From NCBI RefSeq assembly GCF_030586465.1, contig NZ_JAUQYP010000001.1:2507946-2571945 (forward strand): 64,000 bases of DNA. The letters are read 5' to 3'. The notes under the pieces are model-generated. The model was not told the origin of the DNA, searched no databases, and saw only the letters and a program-made list of their open reading frames with translations. Below, one piece after another: positions 5,284 through 54,503 of the stretch; position 1 is the stretch's first letter, and each line of letters opens with the position of its first letter. This DNA is from Actinotalea lenta (GTDB lineage: Bacteria; Actinomycetota; Actinomycetes; Actinomycetales; Cellulomonadaceae). The position numbers were made by a program, and so were the translations under genes.

Positions 5284-6441
5284 ATGAGCGAGCTGCGACT
5301 GGTGGGCCTGGACGAGGACGGCGGGAGTGTCGTGCTGGAGGGTCCGAACGGGCAGCGCTTCACCCTGCCCATCGACGACGCACTGCGGGCCGCCGTCCGC
5401 CGGGACCGACCCCAGCTCGAGCAGCTGCGCGCCCAGGCGGCCAGCAGCATGCCTCCCCGGGAGATCCAGGCCCGGATCCGCGCGGGCGTCAGTGCGGACG
5501 ACGTCGCCGAGGCCGCCGGGGTGCCGGTGGAGATCGTGCGGCGCTACGAGGGGCCGGTGCTGGCCGAGCGCGACTGGGTGACGCGCCAGGCACGCGAGAG
5601 CCGCATCGGCCACGAGTCGGACGCGCCGGCCCTGGGTGACCTCGCCGAGGACCGGCTCGCGACCCGCGGGGTGGATCCGGCAACTGTGGGCTGGGACGCC
5701 TTCCGAGACGCCTCCGGCCCCTGGTCGGTCCTGCTGCGCTTCGTGGTCGGGGGCGAGGCGCGGACCGCACGGTGGTCCTTCGACCTGGGCGCCCGCACGC
5801 TGCGCGCGGTCGACGACGAGGCCCGCTGGCTCTCCGAGACCGAGCTTCCGGACGGCGTCGTGCCGCGCAGGCACCTGTCCGCGGTGCGGCACCGCGAGCC
5901 ACCGGCCGGTCCGGACACCGACGTGAGCATGGCGCTGCGACCGGTGCTGGCCGCTGTGGATCGCGAACCGGAGGAGCCGGAGGACCCCGAGGAGGAGAAC
6001 GCGCTGGACAGCACCGAGGCTCTCCTGGCGGACCTGCGGGGCAGGCGGGGCGTGCGGCAACCCTTCGACCCGGACGCGGAGGACGATGGCGACGACTTCG
6101 AAGGCTTCGGTCCGCAGCACGCCTTCGACTTCGAGCACCCGGGGCTGACGATGCCCCCGGCCGCCCACCCCGCGGACTCGCGTCCGCAGGAGGCCGTCGA
6201 CGCGACCGTCCTGGAGATCCCGCGGCGCGGCGACCACGTGCCCGAGCCGGCCGACCGGGCGGAGCCCGACGAGCCGACGGCCGCGTCCGACGGTCCGACC
6301 GCCTCCGCGCCGTCACCGTCCCGTTCGCCGGAGGACACCGGCCGGCAGTCGGAGCCGACGCCCCGACGCCCTCGCGGGCGTAAGGGCCGCGCCTCAGTGC
6401 CGAGCTGGGACGAGATCGTGTTCGGCGCCAAACCGGAGTAG
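5284..6441 (+). CDS. sepH: Septation protein SepH (DUF3071)
   Basis: Actinobacterial cell-division protein that, in Streptomyces and Mycobacterium, binds FtsZ and promotes Z-ring assembly. 385 residues. The conserved N-terminal half contains MSELRLVGLDEDGGSVVLE, a helix-turn-helix-like segment (PREIQARIRAGVSADDVAEA, about residues 58-78) and the RARESR/LGDLAEDRL region. The C-terminal half is a long acidic, Pro-rich disordered tail ending in a basic patch (RRPRGRKGRAS) and SWDEIVFG. A good Shine-Dalgarno (gaggaggt) sits before ATG 5284. Divergent from suhB; 11 bases separate it from convergent tdk. Confidence 0.93.
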   Translation: MSELRLVGLDEDGGSVVLEGPNGQRFTLPIDDALRAAVRRDRPQLEQLRAQAASSMPPREIQARIRAGVSADDVAEAAGVPVEIVRRYEGPVLAERDWVTRQARESRIGHESDAPALGDLAEDRLATRGVDPATVGWDAFRDASGPWSVLLRFVVGGEARTARWSFDLGARTLRAVDDEARWLSETELPDGVVPRRHLSAVRHREPPAGPDTDVSMALRPVLAAVDREPEEPEDPEEENALDSTEALLADLRGRRGVRQPFDPDAEDDGDDFEGFGPQHAFDFEHPGLTMPPAAHPADSRPQEAVDATVLEIPRRGDHVPEPADRAEPDEPTAASDGPTASAPSPSRSPEDTGRQSEPTPRRPRGRKGRASVPSWDEIVFGAKPE

Positions 6442-49767: not shown

Positions 49768-51593
49768 CGCTGCTCATCCTCCTCGTCGCGCTCGATCACA
49801 ACTTCCTCGTCGCCGCCCGAGTCGTCGATCACCACCGCCGTGGCCTGCTCCTTGGCTGACGCGCCCTCGTCCAGCGTCCGCTGGGCTCCCTCCGGGCTGC
49901 CGTCGAGGTCGGGACCGCCGAAGAAGGGGAACGACGACGGTGGCACATGGTCCATCGCCGCGACCTCGGGGTGGTGCAGGTCGAAGGCCGGCCGCTCGGA
50001 CCGGATCCTGGGCAGCGAGGTGAAGTTGTGCCGCGGAGGCGGGCAGGAGGTCGCCCACTCCAGGGAGGCGCCGTAGCCCCAGGGGTCGTCGACGGCGACC
50101 TTCGGGGCGTTGCGGGCCGTGATGTAGACGTTCCAGAAGAACGGGAGCATCGACAGCGCCAGGATGAAGGCGCCGATCGTGGAGATCTGGTTCATCGTCG
50201 TGAACCCGTCCTCCGGGATGTAGTCCACGATGCGCCGCTGCATGCCCTTCACGCCGAGCCAGTGCTGGATCAGGAACGTGGTGTGGAATCCGATGAACAG
50301 CAGCCAGAAGTGCAGCTTCCCGAGCCGCTCGTTGAGCATCTTCCCGGTGAACTTGGGCCACCAGAAGTAGAAACCCGCGAACATCGCGAAGACCACGGTG
50401 CCGAACACGACGTAGTGGAAGTGCGCGACCACGAAGTAGGTGTCGGACAGCTGGAAGTCCAGTGCGGGGCTGGCCAGGATCACCCCGGTCAGCCCGCCGA
50501 AGAGGAAGGACACCAGGAAGCCCACCGACCACAGCATCGGCGTCTCGAACGTGAGCTTGCCGCGCCACATGGTGCCGATCCAGTTGAAGTACTTCACGCC
50601 GGTCGGCACCGCGATGAGCATCGTCATCAGGGCGAAGAAGGGCAGCAGAACGGCGCCGGTGACGTACATGTGGTGCGCCCACACGGTCACCGAGAGCGCG
50701 GCGATCGCGATCGTCGCGTAGACCAGCCCCTTGTAGCCGAACACCGGCTTGCGGCTGAACACGGGGAAGATCTCGGTCACGATGCCGAAGAACGGCAGCG
50801 CGATGATGTAGACCTCCGGGTGGCCGAAGAACCAGAACAGGTGCTGCCACAGGATCGCCCCGCCGTTCGCCGCGTTGAACACCTGGGCGCCAAGGCGCCG
50901 GTCGGCCCCCAGGGCGAACAGCGCGGAGGCCAGCGGAGGGAACGCCATGAGGATCAGGAGCCCGGTCACCAGGGTGTTCCAGGTGAAGATCGGCATGCGG
51001 AACATCGTCATGCCCGGTGCGCGCATGGTCAGGATCGTCGTGATGAAGTTGACGGCACCGAGGATCGTGCCGAATCCCGCCAGGGCGAGGCCGAAGACCC
51101 ACAGGTCGCCGCCCAGGCCCGGTGAGTTCACGGCGTTGGACAACGGCGCGTAGGCGAACCAGCCGAACGACGCCGCGCCCTGCGGGGTGAAGAAGCCCGA
51201 CACGGTGATGAGCCCGCCGAACAGGAACAGCCAGTACGCGAAGGCGTTCAGGCGCGGGAAGGCGACGTCGGGCGCCCCGATCTGCAGGGGCATGATCACG
51301 TTGGCGAAGCCCGCGAACAGCGGCGTCGCGAACAGCAGCAGCATGATCGTGCCGTGCATCGTGAACAGCTGGTTGTACTGGCTGTGGCTGACGATCTGGA
51401 TGCCGGGCTCGAAGAGCTCGGCGCGGATGAGCAGTGCCATCACGCCGGCGAGCAGGAAGAAGAAGAACGACGTCCCGAGGTAGAGGTAGCCGATCGTCTT
51501 GTGATCCGTGGTGGTGACCCACGAGACGATCACCTTGCCCACAGGCTTGCGCTGCGGGACGCTCGCCGCGAGTGCCTGGGTCTGGGTGGCCAT
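49764..51593 (-). CDS. ctaD: Cytochrome c oxidase subunit I
   Basis: 609 residues, twelve helices. Heme a and a3/CuB ligands: [29 protein letters not shown] (proton-channel Glu and the His-Tyr cross-link region), [10 protein letters not shown] and [18 protein letters not shown]-terminal hydrophilic extension of about 60 acidic residues ([12 protein letters not shown] to the end) is typical for actinobacteria. ATG 51593 shares one base with the ctaC stop. Reduces O2 to water and pumps protons. Confidence 0.97.
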
Positions 51594-52471
51594 CAGCCCT
51601 CCTGCTTCGGGGTCGTCGGGTTGGCACCCGGATGGTCTGCCGGGTTGAGGTCCAGCCCCAGCTTTCCGACCTGCCCGGCCGACCGCAGCCGCTCCATCTG
51701 GGCCTGGTACTCCTCCGGGCTGACCACGTCCACCTGGAAGAGCATCCCGGAGTGGTACTCGCCGCACAGCTCGGCGCACTTGCCCAGGTACATCCCCTTG
51801 CGCTCGGGCACGATCTGGAACGTGTTCGTCCGGCCGGGGATCAGATCCTCCTTGTAGAGGAATGCCGGCACCCAGAACGAGTGGATCACGTCGCGCGACT
51901 CGAGCTTGAACTCCACGCGCTTGCCGAGCGGCAGGTACAGCGTCGGCAGCCGTGGGTCACCGAGCTTGACCGTGCCCGGGTCGTCGATCTGCGTGCCGGA
52001 CTCCCACACGCCGGAGTCCAGGTAGTTGAAGTCCCAGCTCCAGCGCTTGCCGATCACCTCGATCGTGACGTCGGGCGTCTTGGACGTGTCCTTGATCGCC
52101 GACATGTCACGCTCGGTGTAGAAGTACAGGACGCCGATCATGAACAGCGGCAGCACCACGTACATGATCTCCAAGGGGACGTGGTACCGCGTCTGGATGG
52201 GCAAGGTGTCGTCGTCCCGGCGCTTGCGATAGACCACGACGGACCAGATGATCAGCCCCCACGTGATCACGCCGACCGCCAGCGCGGCGGTCCACGTGCC
52301 CGTCCAGAGATGCGTGATCCGGCCGGTCATGTTGGTGACCTGCCCGTTGTCGTAGCCCGGCAGGAAACCGCGTCGTGTGTCGGCGGAGCATCCGCTCAGC
52401 AGCACGGCGGCGGCGACTGCCAGCACCACGAGCCGGGAGGTCCGACGACCCCGAGGCTGTTGCACGTCCAC
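51593..52471 (-). CDS. ctaC: Cytochrome c oxidase subunit II
   Basis: 292 residues. Lipoprotein-type signal ([16 protein letters not shown], lipobox Cys near residue 30), two membrane helices (about 53-75 and 101-120), then the CuA cupredoxin domain with [12 protein letters not shown] and the ligand set [12 protein letters not shown]. Start GTG 52471 follows aaagg; GTG 52465 is equally possible. The only protein product between it and the divergent NifS-like gene is regulatory DNA of about 140 bases. Confidence 0.95.
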
Positions 52472-52614
52472 CCTTGCCTTTCCGAGAGCCCGAGTCGCAG
52501 CACCGCCGCAGACCCGGGACCTTCGTCCCTGGGTGCCCACCCTAGCGTGCCTCGTCCCACAACGAGACCCGATCCGGATCGCGTGGCGCGCGGCCGGCGA
52601 TCTAGGTTGGCCCC

Positions 52615-53724
52615 GTGACCTCCCGGGTATACCTCGACGCACGAGCGCCGCTGCACCCGGCGGCACGAGCCGCGATCCTCGAGGCGCTGGACGACGGCTG
52701 GGCAGACCCCGGGCGGCTGCACTCGGAGGGTCGCCGTGCTGCTGCGCTCGCCGACCGGGCCAAGGAGACGATCGCCGGGCACCTGGGGGCGCGGCCGGCC
52801 GAGCTCCGGCTCACCCCCACGCACACCGCGTCGCTGCACCGGGCCGTGGTCGACGTGGTGGCGGCCCGCCGACGGCTCGGCGGGCGCGTGGTGCACTCCG
52901 CCGTGGAACGTGCTGCGCTGCTCGCCGCCGCGGATCAGGCCGAGCCGGTGTCCGTCCCGGTGCGGAGCGACGGACGTGTCGACCTCGACGCATGGCGCGC
53001 GGCCCTCGCGGAACCGGCCGCGCTGGCCGCGCTGCAGCACGCCAACCCTGAGGTCGGAACCATCCAGCCGCTGCCCGAGGCCCACGAGGCCGCTGCCGCG
53101 GCCGGGGTGCCGCTGCTCGTCGACGCGGGCGCGACCATCGGTCATGTCCCCGCTCCCCCAGCGTGGGACCTGCTCGCGGCCGACCCGGCGTCGTGGGGTG
53201 GCCCAGCGGGCCTCGGCGTCCTCGCGGTGCGCCCCAGGGTCCGGACGCGCGCCACCGGGCCTGCCGACGAGGAGCCGTGGGTCGGCGTCAGTCTGCCGCT
53301 CCTGGCCGGTGCGGCCGCAGCGCTGGATGCCGTCGCATCCCGCCGTGCCGAGGCCGCGCCGAGACGCCGTGTCCTGCTCGAGCGGATCCGCGCCTGCCTG
53401 GGGACGATCCCCGACGTCGAGGTGCCGGGCGACCCGGCGACGGGCCTGCCGCACGTCATGACGTTCTCGTGCCTGTACGTCGACGGCGAGGCCCTGCTGA
53501 CCGAGCTGGACCGTCGAGGCGTGGCGGTGGGTTCCGGCTCGGCCTGCACCGCCAGCACGCTGGAACCCAGTCACGTGCTGGTCGCGATGGGTGTCCTGAC
53601 GCACGGCAACGTCCGTCTCACGCTCCCGGTCGACGTCACCGACGAGCAGGTCGACACGCTGTGCGCGGCCCTGCCGGACGCGGTGGCCGCCGTCCGCGCG
53701 ATGCTCGGGACCTCGGGGCTGTGA
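52615..53724 (+). CDS. NifS/IscS-like class V aminotransferase lacking the PLP lysine
   Basis: 369 residues, clearly of the cysteine desulfurase fold: VYLDARAPLHPAARAAI, PGRLHSEGR, HSAVERAALL, HANPEVGTIQPL, LVDAGATIGHVP (PLP-Asp170 kept) and the mobile cysteine loop GSGSACTASTLEPSHVLVAMG (Cys311 kept). The Schiff-base site that reads S-x-H-K-x-x-GPKG in active enzymes is DPASWGGPAG: Lys is Ser193 and its preceding His is Ala192, with no gap; the PLP-contacting Gln is also lost. So ordinary PLP chemistry seems impossible. Its TGA overlaps the GTG of tusA; in Streptomyces I recall the two as one fused protein. TAGGTT 6 bases before GTG 52615 suggests a leaderless mRNA. Confidence 0.88.
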   Translation: MTSRVYLDARAPLHPAARAAILEALDDGWADPGRLHSEGRRAAALADRAKETIAGHLGARPAELRLTPTHTASLHRAVVDVVAARRRLGGRVVHSAVERAALLAAADQAEPVSVPVRSDGRVDLDAWRAALAEPAALAALQHANPEVGTIQPLPEAHEAAAAAGVPLLVDAGATIGHVPAPPAWDLLAADPASWGGPAGLGVLAVRPRVRTRATGPADEEPWVGVSLPLLAGAAAALDAVASRRAEAAPRRRVLLERIRACLGTIPDVEVPGDPATGLPHVMTFSCLYVDGEALLTELDRRGVAVGSGSACTASTLEPSHVLVAMGVLTHGNVRLTLPVDVTDEQVDTLCAALPDAVAAVRAMLGTSGL

Positions 53725-53984
53725 TCGTCGACGCCCGGGGCGACCGCTGCCCGATGCCGATCATCCGGCTCGCCCGCGCCGCGGCCGGCGCCAATCCGGG
53801 AACGGCCGTGACGGTGCTGTGGACCGACGCGGCGGCGCGCCACGACATCGCGGCGTGGGCCCGGATGCGCGGGCACCGGGTCGTCGGCGAGGAGGTCGCA
53901 GAGCCCGCTGACGGGCACCAGGCCTGGGCGACGACGGTCCTGCTGGGCGGTGCGGGCACGACGACGGCGGCCACCCTCAGGTGA
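53721..53984 (+). CDS. tusA: TusA-family sulfur carrier protein
   Basis: 87 residues. VDARGDRCPMPIIRLARA has the sulfur-carrying Cys in the conserved CPxP motif, and the rest fits the TusA/SirA beta-alpha fold. Receives persulfide sulfur from a desulfurase and hands it on (family knowledge). Here its coupled partner upstream is the Lys-less NifS homologue, so the real sulfur source is unclear. A GC-rich hairpin overlaps its stop codon. Convergent with erpA. Confidence 0.88.
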   Translation: MIVDARGDRCPMPIIRLARAAAGANPGTAVTVLWTDAAARHDIAAWARMRGHRVVGEEVAEPADGHQAWATTVLLGGAGTTTAATLR

Positions 53985-54010: not shown

Positions 54011-54361
54011 TCAGCTGAACGAGCCGCCGCAGGCGCAGGAGCTCGCGGCGTTCGGGTTGTCGATCGTGAAGCCCTGCTTCTCGATGGTGTCTGCGAAGTC
54101 GATCGTGGCGCCCTCCAGGTAGGGCACGCTCATCCGGTCGACGACGACCTCGACCCCGTCGAAGTCCCGCAGCGCGTCGCCGTCGAGCGACCGCTCGTCG
54201 AAGTACAGCTCGTAGATCAGCCCGGAGCAGCCACCCGGCTGCACCGCCACGCGGAGCCGAAGGTCGTCCCGCCCCTCCTGCTCCAGGAGGCTGCGGACCT
54301 TGGCCGCAGCGACGTCGGTGAGGATGACGCCGTGCGTGGCGGTCTGCGTGGTCTCGGTCAT
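54011..54361 (-). CDS. erpA: Iron-sulfur cluster insertion protein ErpA (A-type carrier)
   Basis: 116 residues, HesB/IscA fold. Cluster-binding cysteines are in QPGGCSGLIYEL and the C-terminal SSCACGGSF (three Cys in total, C-x(n)-CxC). Carries Fe-S clusters from the SUF scaffold to apo-targets. ATG 54361 opens the conserved MTETTQTATHGVILTDVAAAKVRSLL. In this window the probable clients are NadA (4Fe-4S) and QcrA (2Fe-2S), which is inference. The 142-base gap upstream separates it from the glycerate kinase-like gene. Confidence 0.94.
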   Translation of the reverse strand: MTETTQTATHGVILTDVAAAKVRSLLEQEGRDDLRLRVAVQPGGCSGLIYELYFDERSLDGDALRDFDGVEVVVDRMSVPYLEGATIDFADTIEKQGFTIDNPNAASSCACGGSFS

Positions 54362-54503
54362 GGCCCCTCCGCGGGTCGCGTGGTTCGTACTCCCGAAGAA
54401 CAACCGGCGGGCGCCGGGTCTTCCCTCCCCAGGGTACGACCTCCCGGCACGTGCGCCTAAAGGACCGGACCCGGGACCGTCGCCGCGCCGCCGGCGTCCC
54501 GCG

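Follow-up and report, generated by a model that had tools for sequence, protein, structure and literature searches.

The 64,000-nucleotide window considered here, from the actinobacterium Actinotalea lenta (contig NZ_JAUQYP010000001.1, positions 2,507,946 to 2,571,945), harbours a gene whose product has the predicted fold of the cysteine desulfurases IscS and NifS, lacks the lysine to which these enzymes attach pyridoxal 5'-phosphate (PLP) and belongs to a family that probably performs a different, cofactor-free job. The gene (52615..53724, + strand) starts with GTG and encodes 369 amino acids; no internal stop or frameshift interrupts the open reading frame (ORF). On the same strand, three sites within it are central to the argument: codons 190–199 (53182..53211), which read DPASWGGPAG and mark the site of the lost S203, H205 and K206 of Escherichia coli IscS; codon 99 (52909..52911), where Arg replaces H104; and codon 311 (53545..53547), the mobile-loop Cys equivalent to C328, which is invariant across the 252 aligned members of the family. 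The TGA stop overlaps, within GTGA, the GTG start of a gene for a TusA-family sulfur carrier (53721..53984, + strand), whose product matches PF01206 with 59.4 bits (cut-off 28.6) and carries the CPxP motif as CPMP; both the overlap and the intact motif had been correctly recorded in the initial annotation. Divergently upstream lies ctaC, for cytochrome c oxidase subunit II (51593..52666, − strand); the listed ctaC ORF overlaps the desulfurase-like gene, so that the true ctaC start probably lies inside it. The convergent downstream neighbour is erpA, which encodes an A-type Fe-S carrier (54011..54403, − strand).

The protein is predicted to adopt the aminotransferase class V fold of IscS: it matches PF00266, which represents this fold, with 95 bits, its AlphaFold model attains a predicted local distance difference test (pLDDT) of 92.3 and a predicted template modelling score (pTM) of 0.92, and the top structural neighbours retrieved with Foldseek and VIA-align are IscS/Nfs1 chains. 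The match to NifS/IscS described initially does span most of the length, but it falls far short of the NCBIfam equivalog cut-offs (181.8 against 530.75 bits for TIGR03402 and 119.6 against 643.2 bits for TIGR02006). Alignment with E. coli IscS (∼29% identity) bears out the earlier residue numbering, passes through the 190–199 block without a gap and places Ser193 at the Schiff-base lysine, K206, and Ala192 at H205; as had also been stated, the PLP-contacting Gln is gone (Ala173 at Q183), and Cys311 and Asp170 (D180) are retained. The replacements go beyond those initially listed and extend to H104 (Arg99), N155 (Pro145) and S203 (Asp190); Thr71 (T76) and Arg334 (R354) are kept. The sole lysine of the protein, Lys50, occupies the position of IscS Arg55.

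In the desulfurase SspA, R340 and N150 are reported to bind the substrate carboxyl group (PMC7188994), and R340 would correspond to Arg334 of the A. lenta protein. Asn144 was considered as the equivalent of IscS Asn155 and ruled out, as it aligns with Asn154. The Asn155 position is Pro in the A. lenta protein and Gly in 107 of the 140 family members without the lysine, which leaves Arg334 as the sole remaining residue that could hold a substrate carboxylate. The R354K variant of E. coli IscS is reported to retain full activity (PMC9978102).

Relatives were sought at several taxonomic depths. At E 1e-40 a match occurs in 187 of 221 genomes from the window's own family and is missing from 34; among good-quality genomes 172 of 196 carry a match, with no internal stop among the matches listed. 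An even draw of the order gave matches at E 1e-42 in 105 of 396 genomes and none in 291. Wider draws yielded 215 of 394 for the class and 91 of 396 for the phylum, many phylum matches being only 32–48% identical and some of the weaker class and phylum matches possibly representing other desulfurases. A plasmid search returned no match at E 1e-40, and a single 27-base exact pattern, a weak test, gave none in viral contigs. Within the window's family, sequences were read from 99 of the 187 genomes with a match, and the other families of the order draw supplied 35 more from 34 of their 71 matching genomes; Kribbia (L078) was assigned to the order on the strength of its NCBI name and its position next to family f17 in the tree. 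The 252 aligned members are the 269 loci with a match of at least 90 bits less 17: repeats (L005, the window's own gene, and the same-genome L036 and L037), fragments (L027, without the lysine, and L086, with it), eight canonical IscS-like rows that all have His-Lys (L002, L030–L035 and L258) and the distant rows L087–L090, none of which has it. L258, from the window's order, groups with the canonical outgroup with a support of 100 (IQ-TREE).

Among the distant rows, those from Endomicrobia metagenome-assembled genomes (MAGs; L087, L088 and L090) represent a separate lysine-less IscS/NifS homologue in which SV replaces His-Lys and the Cys is kept. The L087 gene (3929-5257, +) is followed by an ORF (5328-5726, +) that looks IscU-like by eye, an arrangement resembling the IscS-IscU pair of Archaeoglobus fulgidus; L089 has His-Gln at the lysine site. 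Two matches in family f45, G656:C2:639009-640130 (the lysine-bearing L273) and G718:C2:359142-360236, contain one TGA each and may be pseudogenes, frameshifts or sequencing errors.

The lysine is absent in 140 of the 252 aligned members and present in 112. All 135 members sampled from the window's order, which represent seven families, lack it, as do 5 of 117 outside the order: two Jatrophihabitans MAGs, one Pseudonocardiales MAG and one sequence each in families f40 and f51. The absence first noticed in a single protein is thus a family trait and not a one-off. The lysine-bearing state is likely to be ancestral and loss the direction of change, because this residue is found in the outgroup and on the deep branches. 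Fitch counting on a FastTree tree requires 2 changes of lysine state, the node uniting 136 lysine-less rows having a support of 0.03; in an IQ-TREE subset (41 lysine-less and 64 other sequences, trait columns removed) 4 changes are needed, of which the starred branches force only 1. A substitute lysine, which had been named as a finding that would speak against the initial interpretation, was sought in the domain across the 140 lysine-less members and no conserved one was found: 110 are devoid of lysine in the domain, and the alignment column richest in lysine reaches 7 of 140. These counts are to be read in the light of the high GC content, as lysine-bearing members contain on average 1.5 lysines in addition to Lys193, which is the only one in 26 of 112.

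Loss of the lysine is accompanied by a different pocket. Cys311, Asp170, Asn144 and Arg334 are invariant in all 140 lysine-less members, and conservation of the mobile-loop Cys in the absence of the lysine, which the initial annotation had proposed to examine, therefore extends to the whole group; the same invariance applies to Asp8, Trp29, Glu146, Gln151, Arg210, Ala234, Arg259, Gly272, His280, Gly302, Gly308, Leu322 and Gly331. The SWGGP block, put forward alongside the Cys as a possible conserved state, fared differently, as most lysine-less members display D190, D193, W194 and G195 instead. Residues typical of the group are Arg99 (114 of 140), Asp190 (123), Asp193 (103), His70 (103) and Ala173 (120); Trp194 (131) is also common in lysine-bearing members (94 of 112). 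The His104 equivalent is changed in 116 and the Gln183 equivalent in 137 of the 140. Lysine-bearing members have Cys311, Arg334 and His99 in 112 of 112 cases and Gln173 in 100. Among lysine-less members, Asp193 is found in 103 of the 114 that have Arg99 and in none of the 24 that have His99, a pattern consistent with a salt bridge between the two positions. The 24 members with His99 belong to families f5, f15, f17 and f18 and include the five sequences outside the order; since His99 is the lysine-bearing state, this suggests that loss of the lysine preceded the appearance of the Arg-Asp pair.

The ratio of nonsynonymous to synonymous substitution rates (dN/dS) was computed pairwise by NG86 on these high-GC genes, so that absolute values are rough: its median is 0.131 (0.082–0.238) over 25 independent lysine-less pairs and 0.146 (0.071–0.277) over 28 lysine-bearing pairs. 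The corresponding tusA values are 0.168 and 0.116, and the pair L228–L229, from loci without TusA, gives 0.130. With an uninterrupted reading frame, these figures uphold the view that the gene is under selection; a decaying gene is disfavoured by both dN/dS and residue conservation.

Linkage to TusA is widespread. By blastp, a same-strand TusA gene occurs at 117 of 140 lysine-less and 102 of 112 lysine-bearing loci, with CPxP in every one, and a divergent ctaC lies upstream at 135 of 140 and 95 of 112, respectively. Natural fusions to TusA are represented by 23 aligned lysine-bearing proteins (Streptomyces, family f37) and by one lysine-less protein, L245, whose AlphaFold model was weak (pLDDT 78.1, pTM 0.68) and was not used. 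The coupling to TusA proposed initially therefore stands as a linkage, but TusA next door is dispensable. Of the 23 lysine-less loci without a blastp TusA, 19 were counted as TusA-less and four were set apart: L244 (whose TusA lacks the motif Cys), L075 (which runs off its contig), and both L234 and L256 (no erpA marking the far side). The distance to erpA is 23–169 bases at 18 of the 19 loci and 1,445 at L243. All 19 have Arg99, Asp170, Asn144, Trp194, Arg334 and Cys311; residue 193 is Asp at 18 of them and Glu at the other. As these loci keep both pocket and Cys311, TusA cannot be the sole acceptor, nor can delivery to TusA be the whole job. When TusA was searched for in 25 chosen genomes, three of them with an adjacent blastp TusA (L235–L237), the domain was not found at E 1e-3 in four, G116, G329, G303 and G277, all drafts of 99–100% completeness; the first three carry the lysine-less proteins L229, L238 and L239.

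A few further observations concern TusA. Genome G368 encodes two lysine-less copies, L243 and L244, the latter with the loop GCGCTC and an adjacent TusA-like ORF devoid of CPxP. TusA domains are present within frames of ∼750–910 amino acids elsewhere in G262, G022, G032, G368, G571 and others, perhaps as parts of a larger fused protein. The A. lenta genome itself has two more TusA-domain frames, side by side, on another contig (G000:C2:202497-203284).

At the level of sequence, the family combines lysine loss, pocket replacement, a conserved Cys, purifying selection, TusA linkage and persistence without a neighbouring TusA. The best reading, which we consider about evenly poised between right and wrong, is that of a PLP-independent pseudo-desulfurase in which Cys311 is a working thiol. 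An ancestral actinobacterial desulfurase would have worked with an adjacent or fused TusA; the Schiff-base lysine and most of the other PLP contacts would then have been lost in the window's order or early within it, and the former cofactor pocket rebuilt around Arg99, Asp190 and Asp193, with Asp170, Asn144 and Arg334 kept. Cys311 would be the working part, probably receiving sulfur as a persulfide, either from a small persulfide or from one of the true desulfurases of the cell (SufS-like or IscS-like), and would hand it to TusA or, where TusA is absent, to other acceptors. The same genome encodes a SufS-like (L274) and an IscS-like (L275) protein, named by eye from sequence, both of which have His-Lys. 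The E. coli IscS variants H104Q, Q183E and K206A are each reported to be without desulfurase activity (PMC9978102); the A. lenta protein has other residues at each of these positions and is therefore not expected to be a desulfurase. A thiol carrier is favoured because the loop Cys, Arg334 and part of the TusA-facing surface survive: among the residues assigned to the IscS-TusA interface in E. coli (PMC2854127), the D52 position is Asp or Glu in 131 and the R55 position Arg in 136 of 140 lysine-less members.

A number of observations weigh against this pseudo-desulfurase relay. The K206A variant of E. coli IscS is reported to bind some PLP still (PMC9978102), so that lysine loss alone is no proof that PLP is absent; we infer its absence from the loss of several contacts together. 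The rest of the TusA interface is less accommodating: the W45 position is Arg in 138 of 140 lysine-less and 110 of 112 lysine-bearing members, and W45R in E. coli IscS is reported to cut TusA-dependent tRNA modification to ∼5% (PMC2854127); the E49 position is variable; the R220 position is basic (Lys or Arg) in 91 of 112 lysine-bearing but few lysine-less members; and the R237 position is Arg in 97 of 112 lysine-bearing members and Asp or Glu in 107 of 140 lysine-less ones. Nor are residues 47 and 50 (IscS D52 and R55) any more relaxed at the 19 TusA-less loci, where 20 other columns differ, several of them in the stretches 281-287, 312-316 and 330. These same loci preserve pocket and Cys without an adjacent TusA, three of them in the genomes in which no TusA domain was detected. 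The Arg99-Asp193 association tracks phylogeny and does not reflect many independent events. Finally, conservation of the new pocket suggests a ligand or a chemistry that would be superfluous for a plain relay. As a simple relay explains neither this pocket nor the TusA-less lineages, the protein may have an enzymatic role.

Such a role would make the protein a PLP-free enzyme with new chemistry, the pocket (Arg99, Asp190, Asp193, Asp170 and Arg334) binding a small sulfur compound and Cys311 serving as sulfurtransferase nucleophile. The intact pocket and Cys at the 19 TusA-less loci point to a constraint independent of a neighbouring TusA, but the conservation could be structural, and positions 99 and 193 are variable among the lysine-less representatives of families f5, f15, f17 and f18 as well as among the five sequences from beyond the order; we deem this rather unlikely. 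Equally doubtful is a cofactor-free sulfurtransferase spanning the seven families, with a new sulfur substrate, Cys311 as nucleophile and TusA as an optional acceptor. Unlikely as well, though marginally less so, is a scaffold or ligand protein akin to A. fulgidus IscS, with Cys311 as a ligand or docking point in Fe-S assembly. The archaeal protein lost the same lysine, to Asp, and is described as having no desulfurase activity and providing a Cys ligand to the IscU cluster (PMC7585200). The same Lys-to-Asp change occurs in 103 of 140 lysine-less members, A. fulgidus IscS also has Ala at Gln183, its structures (4hvk, 4eb5, 4eb7 and 4r5f) appear among the close hits of the structural searches, and erpA adjoins the locus. 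However, erpA is on the opposite strand, convergent, the immediate neighbours are ctaC, tusA and erpA and not IscU (beyond them the window was not searched for it), and A. fulgidus IscS keeps the His of SAVEH, a position that is Arg in 114 of 140 lysine-less members.

Distinctly unlikely, in our judgement, is an inactive partner subunit that forms a mixed dimer with a true desulfurase and regulates it or directs it to TusA, as the true desulfurases are encoded far off on the same contig, at C1:2065180 and C1:2861035 against C1:2560560 for the gene under study. The least credible proposal, a vestigial protein that lost its enzymatic role and is kept by chance or slowly decaying, could draw on the patchy distribution in the family and order draws and on the loss of TusA in several lineages. 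It is highly improbable: the gene is present in most good-quality genomes of the window's family without internal stops among the matches listed, its dN/dS is as low as that of lysine-bearing relatives, and Cys311, Arg334, Asp170 and Asn144 never vary among the lysine-less members.

A lysine-less desulfurase fold is already known from A. fulgidus IscS and Methanosarcina acetivorans IscS1. The former (4r5f being its D199K mutant) shares with the A. lenta protein the replaced lysine and the retained mobile-loop Cys, but it is archaeal and ∼29% identical, its partner is IscU rather than TusA, and it has retained both a GPKG block and the His104 counterpart. The latter, compared by description only, is reportedly without the catalytic lysine and is paired with IscU (PMC7585200). 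The lysine-less desulfurases found described there are archaeal and tied to IscU, and no description of a TusA-linked family was recognised in the literature searched, which mostly excludes subscription journals. E. coli IscS, known in complex with TusA (3lvj), resembles the A. lenta protein in fold, mobile-loop Cys, TusA partnership and the interface positions D52 and R55, but is a PLP enzyme whose H104, N155, Q183, S203, H205 and K206 are all replaced here. Closer still are the lysine-bearing actinobacterial relatives (Micromonospora and Streptomyces), with ∼47–54% identity, an adjacent or fused TusA and ctaC upstream; they differ in keeping Lys193, which defines their group, and the aligned Streptomyces ones are single fused proteins. 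What is new is a bacterial, TusA-linked lysine-less family that covers seven families of the order, has lysine-bearing relatives in a matching neighbourhood and possesses a differently rebuilt pocket. In genome-based reconstructions of sulfur metabolism, IscS/NifS-like matches of this kind should not be counted as cysteine desulfurases, and the family offers a natural before-and-after series for a PLP enzyme turning into a PLP-free protein.
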